In this document: positions 4,899 to 55,016 of the stretch, piece after piece | How positions within the stretch are numbered: the first letter of the stretch is position 1 | Layout of the letters: each line of letters opens with the position of its first letter | NCBI GenBank assembly: GCA_023382935.1 | Contig: JAHDXL010000003.1 | Location: forward strand, 124,001 to 188,000 | DNA: 64,000 bases | DNA from: Phycisphaerales bacterium | GTDB lineage: Bacteria; Planctomycetota; Phycisphaerae; Phycisphaerales; UBA1924 | Reading direction: 5' to 3' | Position numbers and translations under genes: made by a program | The notes under the pieces: model-generated | Seen by the model: only the letters and a program-made list of their open reading frames with translations | What the model was told of the DNA's origin: nothing | Databases searched by the model: none

Positions 4899-6233
4899 AT
4901 GACGTCGCTGCCCATCTACAAGTCGTTCCGCCACGGCGTGCACCCGCACGAGCACAAGGAAGCCACCGAGCACCTTCCGCTCCAGCGGATGCCCTTCGTC
5001 GAGCGCTACGTGCTTCCACTGGGGCAGCAGTTGGGCGCGCCGGGCAAGGCCATGGTGCGCGTGGGGCAGGATGTCACGCGCGGGCAGATGATCGCCGAGC
5101 CGGGGGGGTACGTTTCGGTCGCGTTGCACAGCCCGGTGGCCGGGCGCGTGGTGTTCATCGGGCAGCGCCGGCATCCAAACGGGCAACTGGTCGCCGCCAT
5201 CGAGATCGAGGCCGACCCCTACTCATCGCAGCAGTTTGTTGCGTCGCCTCCGCCTCCAGTGGATGCGATGGACGTTTCGACATTCATTCAGCATGTGCAG
5301 CGTGCGGGCATGGTCGGACTGGGCGGGGCGGCCTTTCCCAGCCACGTGAAGTACAAACTTCCCGAGGGCAAACGCTGCGAGAAACTCGCCATCAACGGGT
5401 GCGAGTGCGAGCCCTATCTCACCTGCGATCATCGCGTCATGGTCGAGCGCCCGGCCGAGGTGATCCGCGGGGTCGAGATCCTGGCGGCCAAACTGGCCGC
5501 CGGCGGGTCGTGGATCGGCGTCGAAATGAACAAGCCCGACGGCGTCGAGTCGCTGCGGGCCCATGTGCGCGACGGCAGCCGCATCAACGTGATGCCGCTG
5601 GCCGTCAAGTATCCGCAGGGCGCCGAGAAGATGCTCATCAAGGCCATGTTCGGACAGGAAGTGCCGGCCGGCAAACTCCCGCTCGACATCGGCATCGTGG
5701 TCAACAACGTGGCGACGATGGCGGCGCTGGCAGATTACTTCGATCGCGGGCAGCCGCTCATCGAGCGTGCCGTCACCGTCGCCGGTCCGGGCGTTGATCG
5801 CCCGGCGAACCTGATCGTCCCGATCGGCACACCCATCCGTGAAGTGCTGCGTTTCTGCGGCATCAACCGTGACACGCGGCAGGTGATCATGGGCGGGCCG
5901 ATGATGGGCATGCCGCTGGCCACGCTCGACGCGCCGGTGCTCAAGGGCACCAGCGGGCTGCTGGCCTTCACAGAAGGCGCGGTCAACCACCCCACCGAGT
6001 ACGAGTGCATCCGATGCGGGCAGTGCCTCGAAGCCTGCGGCAACTTCCTGAATCCGTCACGTCTGGCGCGGCTGGCACGGGCCGGACGGCTGGACGATCT
6101 GGAAGCCAACTACGTGATGGACTGCATGGAGTGCGGCGCGTGCACTTACACCTGCCCCTCCGGCGTGCCCATCGTTCATCTCATCCGCGCCGGCAAACTG
6201 GCGATCCGTCATCGAAAGGCGACCAAGGGATGA
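4899..6233 (+). CDS. rnfC: RnfC, NADH/FMN-binding subunit of the Rnf complex
   Basis: A 444-residue peripheral subunit that exchanges electrons with NAD(H) through FMN and two 4Fe-4S clusters. Visible features are the Gly-rich GGAAFPSHVK segment of the Nqo1/51-kDa-like fold, a lipoyl-like N-terminal region, and two C-terminal clusters: CIRCGQCLEAC beginning at residue 370 and CMECGACTYTCP at residue 409. The ATG follows the upstream stop by one base, and the TGA overlaps the rnfD start (ATGA). Length is close to the short form of RnfC; the long Lys/Ala-rich tail of enterobacterial RsxC is absent. Confidence 0.95.
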   Translation: MTSLPIYKSFRHGVHPHEHKEATEHLPLQRMPFVERYVLPLGQQLGAPGKAMVRVGQDVTRGQMIAEPGGYVSVALHSPVAGRVVFIGQRRHPNGQLVAAIEIEADPYSSQQFVASPPPPVDAMDVSTFIQHVQRAGMVGLGGAAFPSHVKYKLPEGKRCEKLAINGCECEPYLTCDHRVMVERPAEVIRGVEILAAKLAAGGSWIGVEMNKPDGVESLRAHVRDGSRINVMPLAVKYPQGAEKMLIKAMFGQEVPAGKLPLDIGIVVNNVATMAALADYFDRGQPLIERAVTVAGPGVDRPANLIVPIGTPIREVLRFCGINRDTRQVIMGGPMMGMPLATLDAPVLKGTSGLLAFTEGAVNHPTEYECIRCGQCLEACGNFLNPSRLARLARAGRLDDLEANYVMDCMECGACTYTCPSGVPIVHLIRAGKLAIRHRKATKG

Positions 6234-52316: not shown

Positions 52317-52392
52317 CCTGAACAGATGCTTGAATCCCCCCCCCGGGGGTGGGTAAGATCGCCGACGTGCTGGCATCGAAGGAGCCGTCGAA

Positions 52393-53757
52393 ATGACCAA
52401 GGCGACACTGGGCGTCGCTTGCTTATCGGTCCTGTTCGCAGGTGTCGCGCTGGCTGGACCCGACTCAACCAGCGTGTCCCGCTCCATCCCCGGCTCATCC
52501 TTGCTGGTGGACTATACCGGCGACTGTCATGTCACGGACACAGACGTCGGTGTGGCGGCATTGCTCCAACTGTCACTCTCATCCATCGGCGACGAGGACG
52601 CCGACGGCCAGATCACGATCAGTGACAAGATCATCGCCTTGCAAGAACTCATCCTCAAGAGTTATGGCGATGTCAACGGCGACGGAGTGATTGATATTAG
52701 TGACATGGCGCAGGCGGTCCGGGACGTCCAATCCTCTGCGGACGGCCTGTCGTCTGACGCCAACACGGACGGACAGGTCGATGCGATCGATGTTCTCTAC
52801 ATCGCCAGTTCACTGGGTGGGGGTGTTCCATCCGAAGGCCGTCTGAGCACGGTCGCCAACGCCTTATATCGAGTAATGTCCCAGATTGAGGCCGAGGGCG
52901 GCATCAACACATTCATCAGCAGCGAGACCTGCGTGGCTGGCGATGATCCGTGCGCCAACGACCTGGGCCCCGAGAGTCATCGTGTGACGATTTCCGATTC
53001 GTGGTATGTTCCGGCTGGCAATCACACGCGCGCGGTGAGTGCCAAGTGGCCCGCGAACCACTCATACGCCCTCTCGAAGTCGTGGGACATGTACGAACAC
53101 CAGGTTCAACTGAGCAAAGAAACCCAGTGGCCTGCCAACCACGACGGTAAGTTCTCCCGCACCTGGAGCAGGCGCCCGAATGATGGCTGGGATCATGACC
53201 ATGACCTGGCCCTCTCGCTGGCCCACCCGCAAGAACACTCCGTTGATCGCAGCAAACTGTGGAGTTATGCGCCAGGTCACCTTTACTCGCGAAGCCAGAC
53301 TTGGCCGACCGACCCCATGGAGCATGAAGTTCACGCATCCTGGACTTGGCCTCCAAATCACATCTATGACATTTCGCGCGACGGCGGCGTGTCGAGCCAC
53401 CAGTACGAGTTTTCTCGGCACGACTGGCCGGGTAATCACGCAGTCAATCGATCGCAGGATTGGCCGCCGTCTCATACCTATCGCGTGTCCCAAACTTGGG
53501 CGCCGGGTCACAGCGACCCATGGAGTTTCCGCTGGCCACCCACGCATCAGGCGCTGGTTTCCAGCACATGGAATCCCGACTCATATCCCATCGGGTGGCC
53601 TCCGAATCACGCGCAGGCCTGTTCCGACCAACAGAACGAACCCGGTCCCTGGGACCAGTTCTGGCCTCAGAATCACACGCGATGGGATTCAATGCGCGAT
53701 ATTCTCGATCTCGTGCCGCCACTCTTGCCCGATCAGTGGTGGCCGTTGGGCAATTGA
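52393..53757 (+). CDS. Secreted EF-hand/dockerin protein with WPxNH dodecapeptide repeats
   Basis: A 454-residue exported protein: signal peptide (LSVLFAGVALAGP), then four calcium-loop repeats of dockerin/EF-hand type (DYTGDCHVTDTDV; DEDADGQITISD; DVNGDGVIDISD; DANTDGQVDAID) over about 40-140, a helix-rich linker, and from S201 to about 432 some 15-16 imperfect copies of a repeat with consensus S-x-x-W-P-x-N-H-x4. Best units are WPANHSYALS, WPPNHIYDIS, WPGNHAVNRS, WPPSHTYRVS. The family of this repeat is unknown to me. ATG with a GGAG site. Its stop overlaps the next ATG by one base (TGATG), and the next gene carries two copies of the same repeat. Confidence 0.8.
   Translation: MTKATLGVACLSVLFAGVALAGPDSTSVSRSIPGSSLLVDYTGDCHVTDTDVGVAALLQLSLSSIGDEDADGQITISDKIIALQELILKSYGDVNGDGVIDISDMAQAVRDVQSSADGLSSDANTDGQVDAIDVLYIASSLGGGVPSEGRLSTVANALYRVMSQIEAEGGINTFISSETCVAGDDPCANDLGPESHRVTISDSWYVPAGNHTRAVSAKWPANHSYALSKSWDMYEHQVQLSKETQWPANHDGKFSRTWSRRPNDGWDHDHDLALSLAHPQEHSVDRSKLWSYAPGHLYSRSQTWPTDPMEHEVHASWTWPPNHIYDISRDGGVSSHQYEFSRHDWPGNHAVNRSQDWPPSHTYRVSQTWAPGHSDPWSFRWPPTHQALVSSTWNPDSYPIGWPPNHAQACSDQQNEPGPWDQFWPQNHTRWDSMRDILDLVPPLLPDQWWPLGN
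52993..53688 (+). repeat. Array of about 16 WPxNH dodecapeptide repeats
   Basis: Codons for an imperfect 12-residue repeat S-x-x-W-P-x-N-H-x-x-x-x; some units are stretched to 14-22 residues. The repeat is at protein level; DNA copies are diverged, so it is old rather than a recent expansion. Confidence 0.75.
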
Positions 53758-55016
53758 TGCAGATGCGTGCTGCTCCCCGCATCACAGTGAGCGCGTATTC
53801 GCTTGCGGCGATCACCTTGCTCAAGGCGTGCACGCCGACAATGCAAGGAAGCACGAGCGACCAGTTTGTAAGTGAACCGCGCTTCAACCAGAGACTCATC
53901 GAGTACGCGTGGAACCCAACGGATGGTGCCGCGCGAAGGCTTCCCTCTGACCTTCGTCCCGCGGACACCGGCGTACGGCTCGATGTGAATGATCCGGCGT
54001 CGGTTGTCGCCTTTGTGCTGGAGCAAAGTCCGGCGCAGCCGATCGTGTATCCCACGGAGCGCTATTACTATTTCGAGTTCAGCGCAGGGCCCAGGCGAGT
54101 TGCCGGTAATCTTCGGTTTACTGATGCCGAAAAGGGCGTGCTGCACACCGGGTACTTTGACCGCTATGATTCCACATTCCTGAAGTCTGCCGATTTCCAG
54201 GCCGACGGCGGTCTGGCGCTCGATTGGAACGACGCCACTCGCACCGCCAACGTGCAATTCCGTGGCATTGAACGGACTTTTCAATTGCCGCGCCCCCGTT
54301 CAACTCGCGCTCTGCTGCTGCCAGGCGAGTCCGACGTGGCCGCAGTTCTGGATGAGTCAGGATTCACATTTCACCTGCTGTTTCACGAACCAAGTGCGCA
54401 ATTCTACTTTGCGCTCGACGACGGGGCGCCGCTTCCGGACACGCTCATCCAACTGCGCACCGAGCCGCCTGTGTGGTTGGGCGTGCGATCGCGATTCGTG
54501 TTTGTGACCGAGCCGGCGCTGCGTCGCCGTGTGCTGGTCGGGGTGTATGCGCCGTCAGTCCGCGCCAATGATTATTACGACGGGCCCTTCGATCAAGTCC
54601 CCCCCGACTTGTACCTCAAGGACAAGTTGGAGGCGGCCTACCCATATGTGAAGTTCCGCGGAGGTATCGATGAGCATGGCAACTTTCGCGAGATCGACGG
54701 ACAACGCGTGGCCATCAGTCCGTACCAAGACTACACATCCACGGAGCAGATGATCGCGCTGATCGTGCGCGGGTTCAACCCATTGCTTGCCACGCCCGCA
54801 TGCTTCGCGCCGCTCGTGTACGAATCGAAGCGCGACACTCACCGGTACGTGGCAGACCCAGGCGAGTCCGAAGATCCTCTCTATCCGCCGCACGACCGTA
54901 TGGTCAGCCGCACCTGGCCGGTTGAACACTGGGCGCACATCAGCGACACTTGGCCCCGCGAACACACGCAGCCTCTCAGCCTGGAAGCCGCGCCCAATGA
55001 GCCGATCGGCGATTGA
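53757..55016 (+). CDS. Lipoprotein with two terminal WPxNH-type repeats
   Basis: A 419-residue protein with a lipoprotein-type signal (SAYSLAAITLLKACTPT; Cys about 25). Most of the mature chain is beta-rich with no known family (YYYFEFSAGPRRVAGNLRF, VWLGVRSRFVFVTEPALRRR). At residues 384-407 the 12-residue repeat of the preceding gene reappears in two exact-length units: SRTWPVEHWAHI and SDTWPREHTQPL. The TGATG overlap with the upstream gene means coupled translation. Inference: a membrane-anchored partner of the secreted repeat protein. Codon use here is less GC-extreme than in neighbours. Confidence 0.75.
   Translation: MQMRAAPRITVSAYSLAAITLLKACTPTMQGSTSDQFVSEPRFNQRLIEYAWNPTDGAARRLPSDLRPADTGVRLDVNDPASVVAFVLEQSPAQPIVYPTERYYYFEFSAGPRRVAGNLRFTDAEKGVLHTGYFDRYDSTFLKSADFQADGGLALDWNDATRTANVQFRGIERTFQLPRPRSTRALLLPGESDVAAVLDESGFTFHLLFHEPSAQFYFALDDGAPLPDTLIQLRTEPPVWLGVRSRFVFVTEPALRRRVLVGVYAPSVRANDYYDGPFDQVPPDLYLKDKLEAAYPYVKFRGGIDEHGNFREIDGQRVAISPYQDYTSTEQMIALIVRGFNPLLATPACFAPLVYESKRDTHRYVADPGESEDPLYPPHDRMVSRTWPVEHWAHISDTWPREHTQPLSLEAAPNEPIGD
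54906..54977 (+). repeat. Two WPxxH dodecapeptide repeats
   Basis: Two consecutive 12-codon units, SRTWPVEHWAHI and SDTWPREHTQPL, the same register as the array in the preceding gene. Here the units are intact and without insertions, which fixes the repeat length at 12. Confidence 0.75.

Follow-up and report, generated by a model that had tools for sequence, protein, structure and literature searches.

The window analysed here is a stretch of 64,000 nucleotides from a Phycisphaerales (Planctomycetota) genome of 3.72 Mb in 35 contigs that is 95.4% complete. On its forward strand it contains two coupled genes, which we call A and B. Gene A (52393..53757, 454 aa) is an open reading frame encoding a Trp/His (W/H) repeat protein, and AAGGAG, its likely ribosome-binding site as read from the sequence, lies 8 nt before its ATG (52379..52384, same strand). 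Gene B (53757..55016, 419 aa), an open reading frame with homologues, is present in a single copy in the source genome. As an earlier note on this DNA had described, the two genes overlap in TGATG (53755..53759); the TGA of A (53755-53757) and the ATG of B (53757-53759) have one base in common. The parts of the two proteins were also found as that note had listed them. Read by eye, A begins with a signal peptide (approximately residues 1-22). This is followed by an EF-hand or dockerin-like module with four loops (52510..52791), identified by a loop scan and by Pfam Dockerin_1, and then by a W/H repeat array of about 16-18 units (residues 196 to ~433; 52978..53691), identified by its spacing statistics and by invariant His, Ser and Trp columns across species. 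B is a lipoprotein by eye, with the lipobox LKAC at 53820..53831 (Cys25). Its core domain (~residues 74-326; 53976..54734) was delimited by alignment and by an AlphaFold2 model, and its repeat tail (S384-S408; 54906..54980) was found by sequence comparison and consists of two exact 12-residue units, S384-L407, plus the next Ser. In the short gap 5' of A, nine consecutive C precede five G (52336-52349).

Occurrence of the repeat was far above that in shuffled sequences. Between residues 196 and 454 of A, taken as its repeat region, H-x4-S was observed 18 times, compared with a mean of 2.45 and a maximum of 8 in 2000 shuffles of the same residues. S-x2-W was found 12 times versus 2.5 in shuffles (maximum 7), and W-x3-H 10 times versus 1.7 (maximum 7). 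Because the repeat region starts at the first H-x4-S, one match per protein is given by selection; over 17 A proteins, H-x4-S occurred 266 times against 43.1 expected (maximum 60 in 200 shuffles). Thus, an origin of the repeat by chance in a composition-biased protein, a doubt raised in the earlier note, does not account for these counts. The same note had written the repeat shared by A and B as S-x-x-W-P-x-N-H-x4, strictly spaced over 12 residues. The repeat is indeed shared, but its spacing from Trp to His is not strict. Among the 17 A proteins, the gap between His and Ser was exactly four residues in 181 of 220 cases, whereas the loop from Trp to His had three residues in 70 of 153 cases and ranged in the rest from 0 to 12, the upper limit of the search. 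The 12-residue period was also weaker in the A protein of the window alone (W-x11-W, 6 with a shuffle maximum of 6; H-x11-H, 6 with a maximum of 6; S-x11-S, 7 with a maximum of 8). The repeat is better written as H-x4-S-x2-W-(variable loop, usually P-x-N)-H, in which H-x4-S-x2-W is the strict element.

Of 201 strict units from 19 A proteins, 76% had a hydrophobic residue at the fourth position after His (V 64, I 30, A 22, L 18). Trp was preceded by T (53) or S (40) in 93 units, and three-residue loops between Trp and His preferred P, then P/A, then N. These unit statistics are compatible with a strand, perhaps some nine residues long, that leads into a turn. At the nucleotide level, TGGCC-N4-AAYCAY, one codon form of W-P-x-N-H, was found eight times in the source genome, six of these in A, and a reversed control pattern was found four times. 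An AlphaFold2 model of A built from 10 sequences had a mean pLDDT of 38, with values of 22-34 over the array. A model with so little confidence in the array was set aside; it neither supports nor excludes the solenoid with an aromatic ladder or metal sites that the earlier note had suggested.

No credible match to the array was found in Pfam among 12 A proteins (the best, with an E value of 0.066 in one of the 12, is at chance level). The array profile had no match among PDB sequences at E 10, and the best value for the array segment of the window was 0.27. The earlier note knew of no described family with this repeat, and neither the array nor the B core had a credible match in Pfam, NCBIfam or PDB sequences. 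Literature searches on the pair or the repeat (WPPNH, planctomycete dockerins, Phycisphaerales surface repeats, 12-residue or Trp/His repeats) returned nothing on them among the matches listed. HYR-type and related domains carry an L-W-P-P-N-H signature that is not known to be repeated every 12 residues; the array has the letters W-P-P-N-H in common with them and differs in its lack of a Pfam match. Tenebrio-type antifreeze proteins form a 12-residue beta-solenoid which is rich in Thr/Ser and has regularly placed Cys and a T-x-T face. The array resembles them in its 12-residue period and Thr/Ser content. However, it has neither regular Cys nor a T-x-T face, the length of its inter-unit loops varies, and PDB sequences gave no match.

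In B, a Cys after G, A or S was seen by eye near the expected place of the lipobox in 10 of 15 aligned proteins; the other five, and also the B protein of L076, had no clear lipobox, i.e., about a third. The core was represented by 16 sequences, in which E101, N118, R120, D199-E-S-G202, R257, N271, D275, G276, D279, Q280, D305 and R317 were invariant, and the charged residues among them suggest a binding or catalytic site. An AlphaFold2 model of B (9 sequences, mean pLDDT of 69.6) is beta-rich, with 10-residue mean pLDDT of 70-93 over residues 71-260 and mostly poorer values elsewhere. With the core model, Foldseek gave no match at E 0.001, and the best match by VIA was NlpE (Z of 4.1, 71 residues at 4.0 Å), a weak result as all rows had Z below 5. 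Self-comparison of the core with hhalign indicated a weak internal repeat (offset ~43, E 0.009, probability 4.5). At the sequence level, 15 B proteins had no credible match in Pfam (best E 0.028, in one of the 15), B had none in NCBIfam, and the best E values against PDB sequences were 0.79 and 1.1. Libraries of phage and defence families had no match to A or B. In the tail (S384-L407), W387, P388, H391 and S396 were invariant in one alignment and invariant or nearly so in a second. Of 16 complete B proteins, 13 had two or more tail units, two (L017 and L018) had one, and one (L014, from G131) had none; in the latter, no tail repeat was found in any frame within 500 nt 3' of the stop codon, and the neighbouring A was intact. 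Of all parts of the pair, the A array and the B core are the most constant.

At 17 of the 20 B loci that could be assessed, an A gene was located directly upstream in the same orientation. These are the window, L023 (G158), L024, L025 and L027 (both G053, a genome from the family of the source genome), L026 (G446), L028, L029 (G474), L030, L012 (G098), L013 (G190), L014 (G131), L015 (G164), L016 (G191), L017 (G143), L018 (G155) and L076 (G597). One further locus, L022, is outside the 20 since its B is cut by the contig end. As to whether the pair is always adjacent, which the earlier note had asked, adjacency is the rule but has exceptions: B was found without A in G326, G543 and G563. Four of the 17 loci had two tandem A genes before one B, namely G053 C13 (L027/L068), G098 (L062), G190 (L064) and G164 (L065). 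The gaps between A and B ranged from -4 to 173 nt at 15 loci with hand-chosen start codons. Neighbouring genes were compared by blastp among 1098 open reading frames from 17 loci, several of which are on short contigs. Only one neighbour recurred directly next to B, the gene following B in L024 and L025/L071 (41% identity over 116 residues, E 9e-24). These two genes (L024 2872-3612 and L071 9563-10243) are homologous and encode membrane proteins; a gene after B in L023 (6172-6903) has a similar layout by eye. A further match was between a frame after B in L028 and a frame ~6 kb from B in L076 (36% over 129), and the remaining neighbour matches were frames overlapping A or B. Because the recurring neighbour was present next to B in just two loci, no third gene is general to the pair. 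A and B form a conserved unit of two genes that are inherited together.

A search with the single B sequence gave matches in 12 of 201 genomes of the order. Two of these, G134 and G181, were weak and were discarded as spurious, resembling heptosyltransferase genes by eye. The B profile and the A-array profile each matched 8 of 397 genomes of the class (apparently the same draw), and 7 were common to both. The eighth genome with B, G326, has its own W/H repeats in the same chain. The eighth array match, in G105, was judged by eye to be a DNA minisatellite read in a chance frame and was dropped as a false positive; this minisatellite (G105:C63, L061 ~5540-5836) reads W-P-D-H in one frame and mimics the A repeat. 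The B core profile matched 4 of 392 genomes of the phylum, including the source genome. In the order of G326, B was found in 3 of 114 genomes, all already known, and in that of G543 in one of two, G543 itself. A pattern scan of contigs, which was built on the B of the window and reaches close relatives only, gave eight loci in six MAGs labelled Phycisphaerales, Phycisphaerae or Planctomycetota. A genome of the same genus, G146, had no match to B (single sequence or profile) or to the array, which points to a patchy distribution. With regard to mobile elements, no relative of B was found in plasmids, none of A in phages, and no match to the B profile in viral contigs.

The relatives lacking A are of two kinds. 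In G326 (C40, L060 4732-8901, minus strand), a single frame of 1390 residues contains a B core, 25% identical to that of the window and with the B-core invariants, followed by twenty 20-residue W/H units of the form K-H-N/A-S/A-G-x-T-W-H-x5-F-I-P-P-G-S, the last incomplete. This repeat has the residues of the A repeat in other spacing. The G326 units are near-identical and, unlike those of the A array, look recently expanded. EF-type loops were seen by eye near the end of the frame; at that place Pfam gave neither a dockerin nor an EF-hand at E 1, and just a MAM row below threshold. The designed propellers Ika8/Tako8 in the PDB matched the G326 repeats (E 1e-4 to 6e-4); these hits were judged to reflect the matching periodicity of two repetitive sequences and were set aside. 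In G543 and G563, B consists of the core only, and no repeat gene was found on their short contigs (10.2 kb and 3.3 kb, respectively).

We also asked how A and B diverged. Distances among A proteins correlated with those among B proteins (Mantel test, r of 0.58 for whole A and 0.59 for the array, 0 of 5000 permutations, n=16); in this test L027, with two A genes, was left out, G098, G190 and G164, also with two, were represented by the A adjoining B, and the B of L016 was used in the form truncated by the end of its contig. Joint inheritance alone is enough to explain this co-divergence. Many His, Ser and Trp columns of the array were invariant across A proteins only 29-38% identical to that of the window. 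At the free positions, identity between units was 0.123 for the same column in different species, 0.083 for other columns and 0.089 within one protein. As the units keep some positional identity and are not homogenised, the array looks old and ordered rather than recently expanded.

It has been proposed that planctomycetes possess a cohesin/dockerin complex, the 'planctosome' model (PMC6461901). The earlier note had suggested that the calcium loops of A might link it to a dockerin-type surface system. A loop scan found four 12-residue EF-type loops in the A of the window (residues 40-51, 67-78, 93-104 and 122-133), and residues 91-138 matched Pfam Dockerin_1 (PF00404) with an E value of 1e-7 and 32.4 bits, reaching the gathering score of 22.9. 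At least one EF-type loop was present in some A at all 17 pair loci. The link to dockerins, however, is weak: at E values up to 0.1, generic models match as many of 10 A proteins (EF-hand_1 in 6) as Dockerin_1 does (5), and Dockerin_1 is thus not a constant part of the family. The number of loops in the module varies, from four down to a single one in L029 and L076, and two A proteins, both second copies in G190 (L013) and G164 (L015), have none, while the W/H array stays; these two are lipoproteins by eye and retain the repeats. At both loci an EF-bearing A that is not a lipoprotein is located upstream as well. The extra A of G098 had zero loops by the scan and one visible by eye. A type I dockerin system resembles A in the Dockerin_1 match of the window, in the loop kept at each locus and in the single cohesin match elsewhere in the source genome (C8:57736-58017). 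It was nevertheless set aside as an explanation, since the module is variable and is as much EF-hand as dockerin. We found nothing that ties the pair to the proposed complex, and the EF-hand module is probably an accessory, calcium-stabilised part of A. On the cohesin contig, cohesin and dockerin matches lie in 1084-aa frames, probably one open reading frame (C8:57736-59892), which may be a cohesin-dockerin adaptor like that of the planctosome model (PMC6461901).

The two genes make up a genuine, conserved family, and their repeat matched none of the libraries or literature listings searched. Our preferred reading, which we put forward tentatively, is a two-part surface assembly of Planctomycetota in which the array of A would associate with the tail of B; export signals were read by eye, and contact between the two proteins is what we infer from the pattern. 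B would be placed in the outer membrane, displaying its 2-3 tail units, and the H-x4-S-x2-W segments may form short beta-strands linked by P-x-N turns. The array would then stack onto, or be seeded by, the tail, and A would in this way be organised at the surface; the B core might have a function of its own, independent of the repeats. By analogy, A and B could work as CsgA and CsgB do in curli, a subunit and a nucleator with a common repeat, from unrelated sequences. In curli, one exported repeat protein helps to bind the other to the cell surface, and both are encoded in the same operon (PMC6957492). The likeness is one of layout and not of homology: two exported proteins (here by eye), repeats of one kind and adjacent genes. 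In contrast to curli, the repeat of A and B is made of H, S, W, P and N, B has a large core and a lipobox, and A has an EF-hand module. The curlin repeat (PF07012) was absent from A and B and from the source genome at E 0.001, with a positive E. coli control, and CsgG (PF03783) was not found in this 95.4% complete genome, with four positive controls. Membership of the curli family was rejected on these two grounds.

We counted in favour of the assembly the pairing at 17 of 20 loci, the short gaps between the genes, the lack of a general third neighbour, the joint occurrence of both profiles in 7 genomes of the class, the correlation of A and B distances, the tail units in most B proteins, the strand- and turn-compatible unit statistics and the units that are not homogenised. 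Several observations count against it. The tail-less B of L014 beside an intact A indicates that the tail is not always needed, and the second A genes of G190 and G164, with lipoboxes of their own, indicate that some A proteins can do without anchoring by B. The lack of a clear lipobox in about a third of B proteins, an array without a confident model, the core-only B proteins of G543 and G563, the absence of CsgG and the explanation of co-divergence by joint inheritance were also counted. The absent tail in L014, the unclear lipobox of some B proteins and the lipoprotein nature of two second A copies speak against simple anchoring, and a shared ligand follows closely as an alternative. According to this alternative, which is rather unlikely in our estimate, each repeat is a ligand-binding unit, either for a metal via the invariant His or for a glycan or ring-bearing ligand via Trp/His, with ~16 sites in A and 2-3 in B, and the B core transports, senses or chemically handles the ligand. 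The spacing of His and Ser is the most rigid in the repeat, and the near-random free positions are as in arrays of independent small sites. B also keeps three tail units in G190 and G164 beside a lipoprotein A, so the tail need not serve solely to hold A, although the non-lipoprotein A upstream weakens this argument. Many invariant charged residues of the core (E101, R120, D199, E200, R257, D275, D279, D305, R317) would suit such a role. However, none of the libraries searched gave a match to a metal, glycan or enzyme family, and in the stretches compared no gene for transport or metabolism recurred beside the pair. A single His in each unit is also little for binding a metal tightly, unless adjacent units act together.

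A role of the B core as an enzyme or chaperone, which would modify, cross-link or fold the A repeats and have the tail as a recognition or self-substrate segment, is improbable in our judgement. The joining of a core to twenty copies of another W/H repeat in one G326 protein fits this idea, as do the invariant acidic and basic core residues, and an intact A beside the tail-less B of L014 is easier to reconcile with an enzyme than with an anchor; on the other hand, core-only proteins occur without a repeat gene on their short contigs, and no enzyme family match or clear fold match was obtained. That the array is a passive spacer or stalk, its common motif merely reflecting exchange of spacer cassettes between neighbouring genes, is very improbable: weakly conserved free positions and an array without a confident model would agree with it, but many His, Ser and Trp columns stay invariant at such low overall identity, the lack of homogenisation within proteins argues against recent cassette exchange, and A accompanies B at most loci.

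Planctomycete surface proteins are little characterised, and A and B offer a pair of protein families that can be named, with clear boundaries, invariant residues and a testable partnership. If the arrays associate, the assembly that we favour would solve the subunit-plus-nucleator problem in a second, unrelated way; should each His be a site, A would be a 16-site exported binding array. A bolder possibility, which we regard as speculative and somewhat unlikely, is that H-x4-S-x2-W / P-x-N units adopt a repeat fold not described before, each strand contributing one His, one Ser and one Trp to the framework, and that Planctomycetota use this fold in a surface system of two dedicated genes. The B core would then be the common denominator of W/H-repeat systems (compare the G326 fusion), handling, nucleating or loading the arrays. 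The G131 locus (L014 / L063), where a tail-less B is found beside an intact A, is a natural test of the purpose of the tail.
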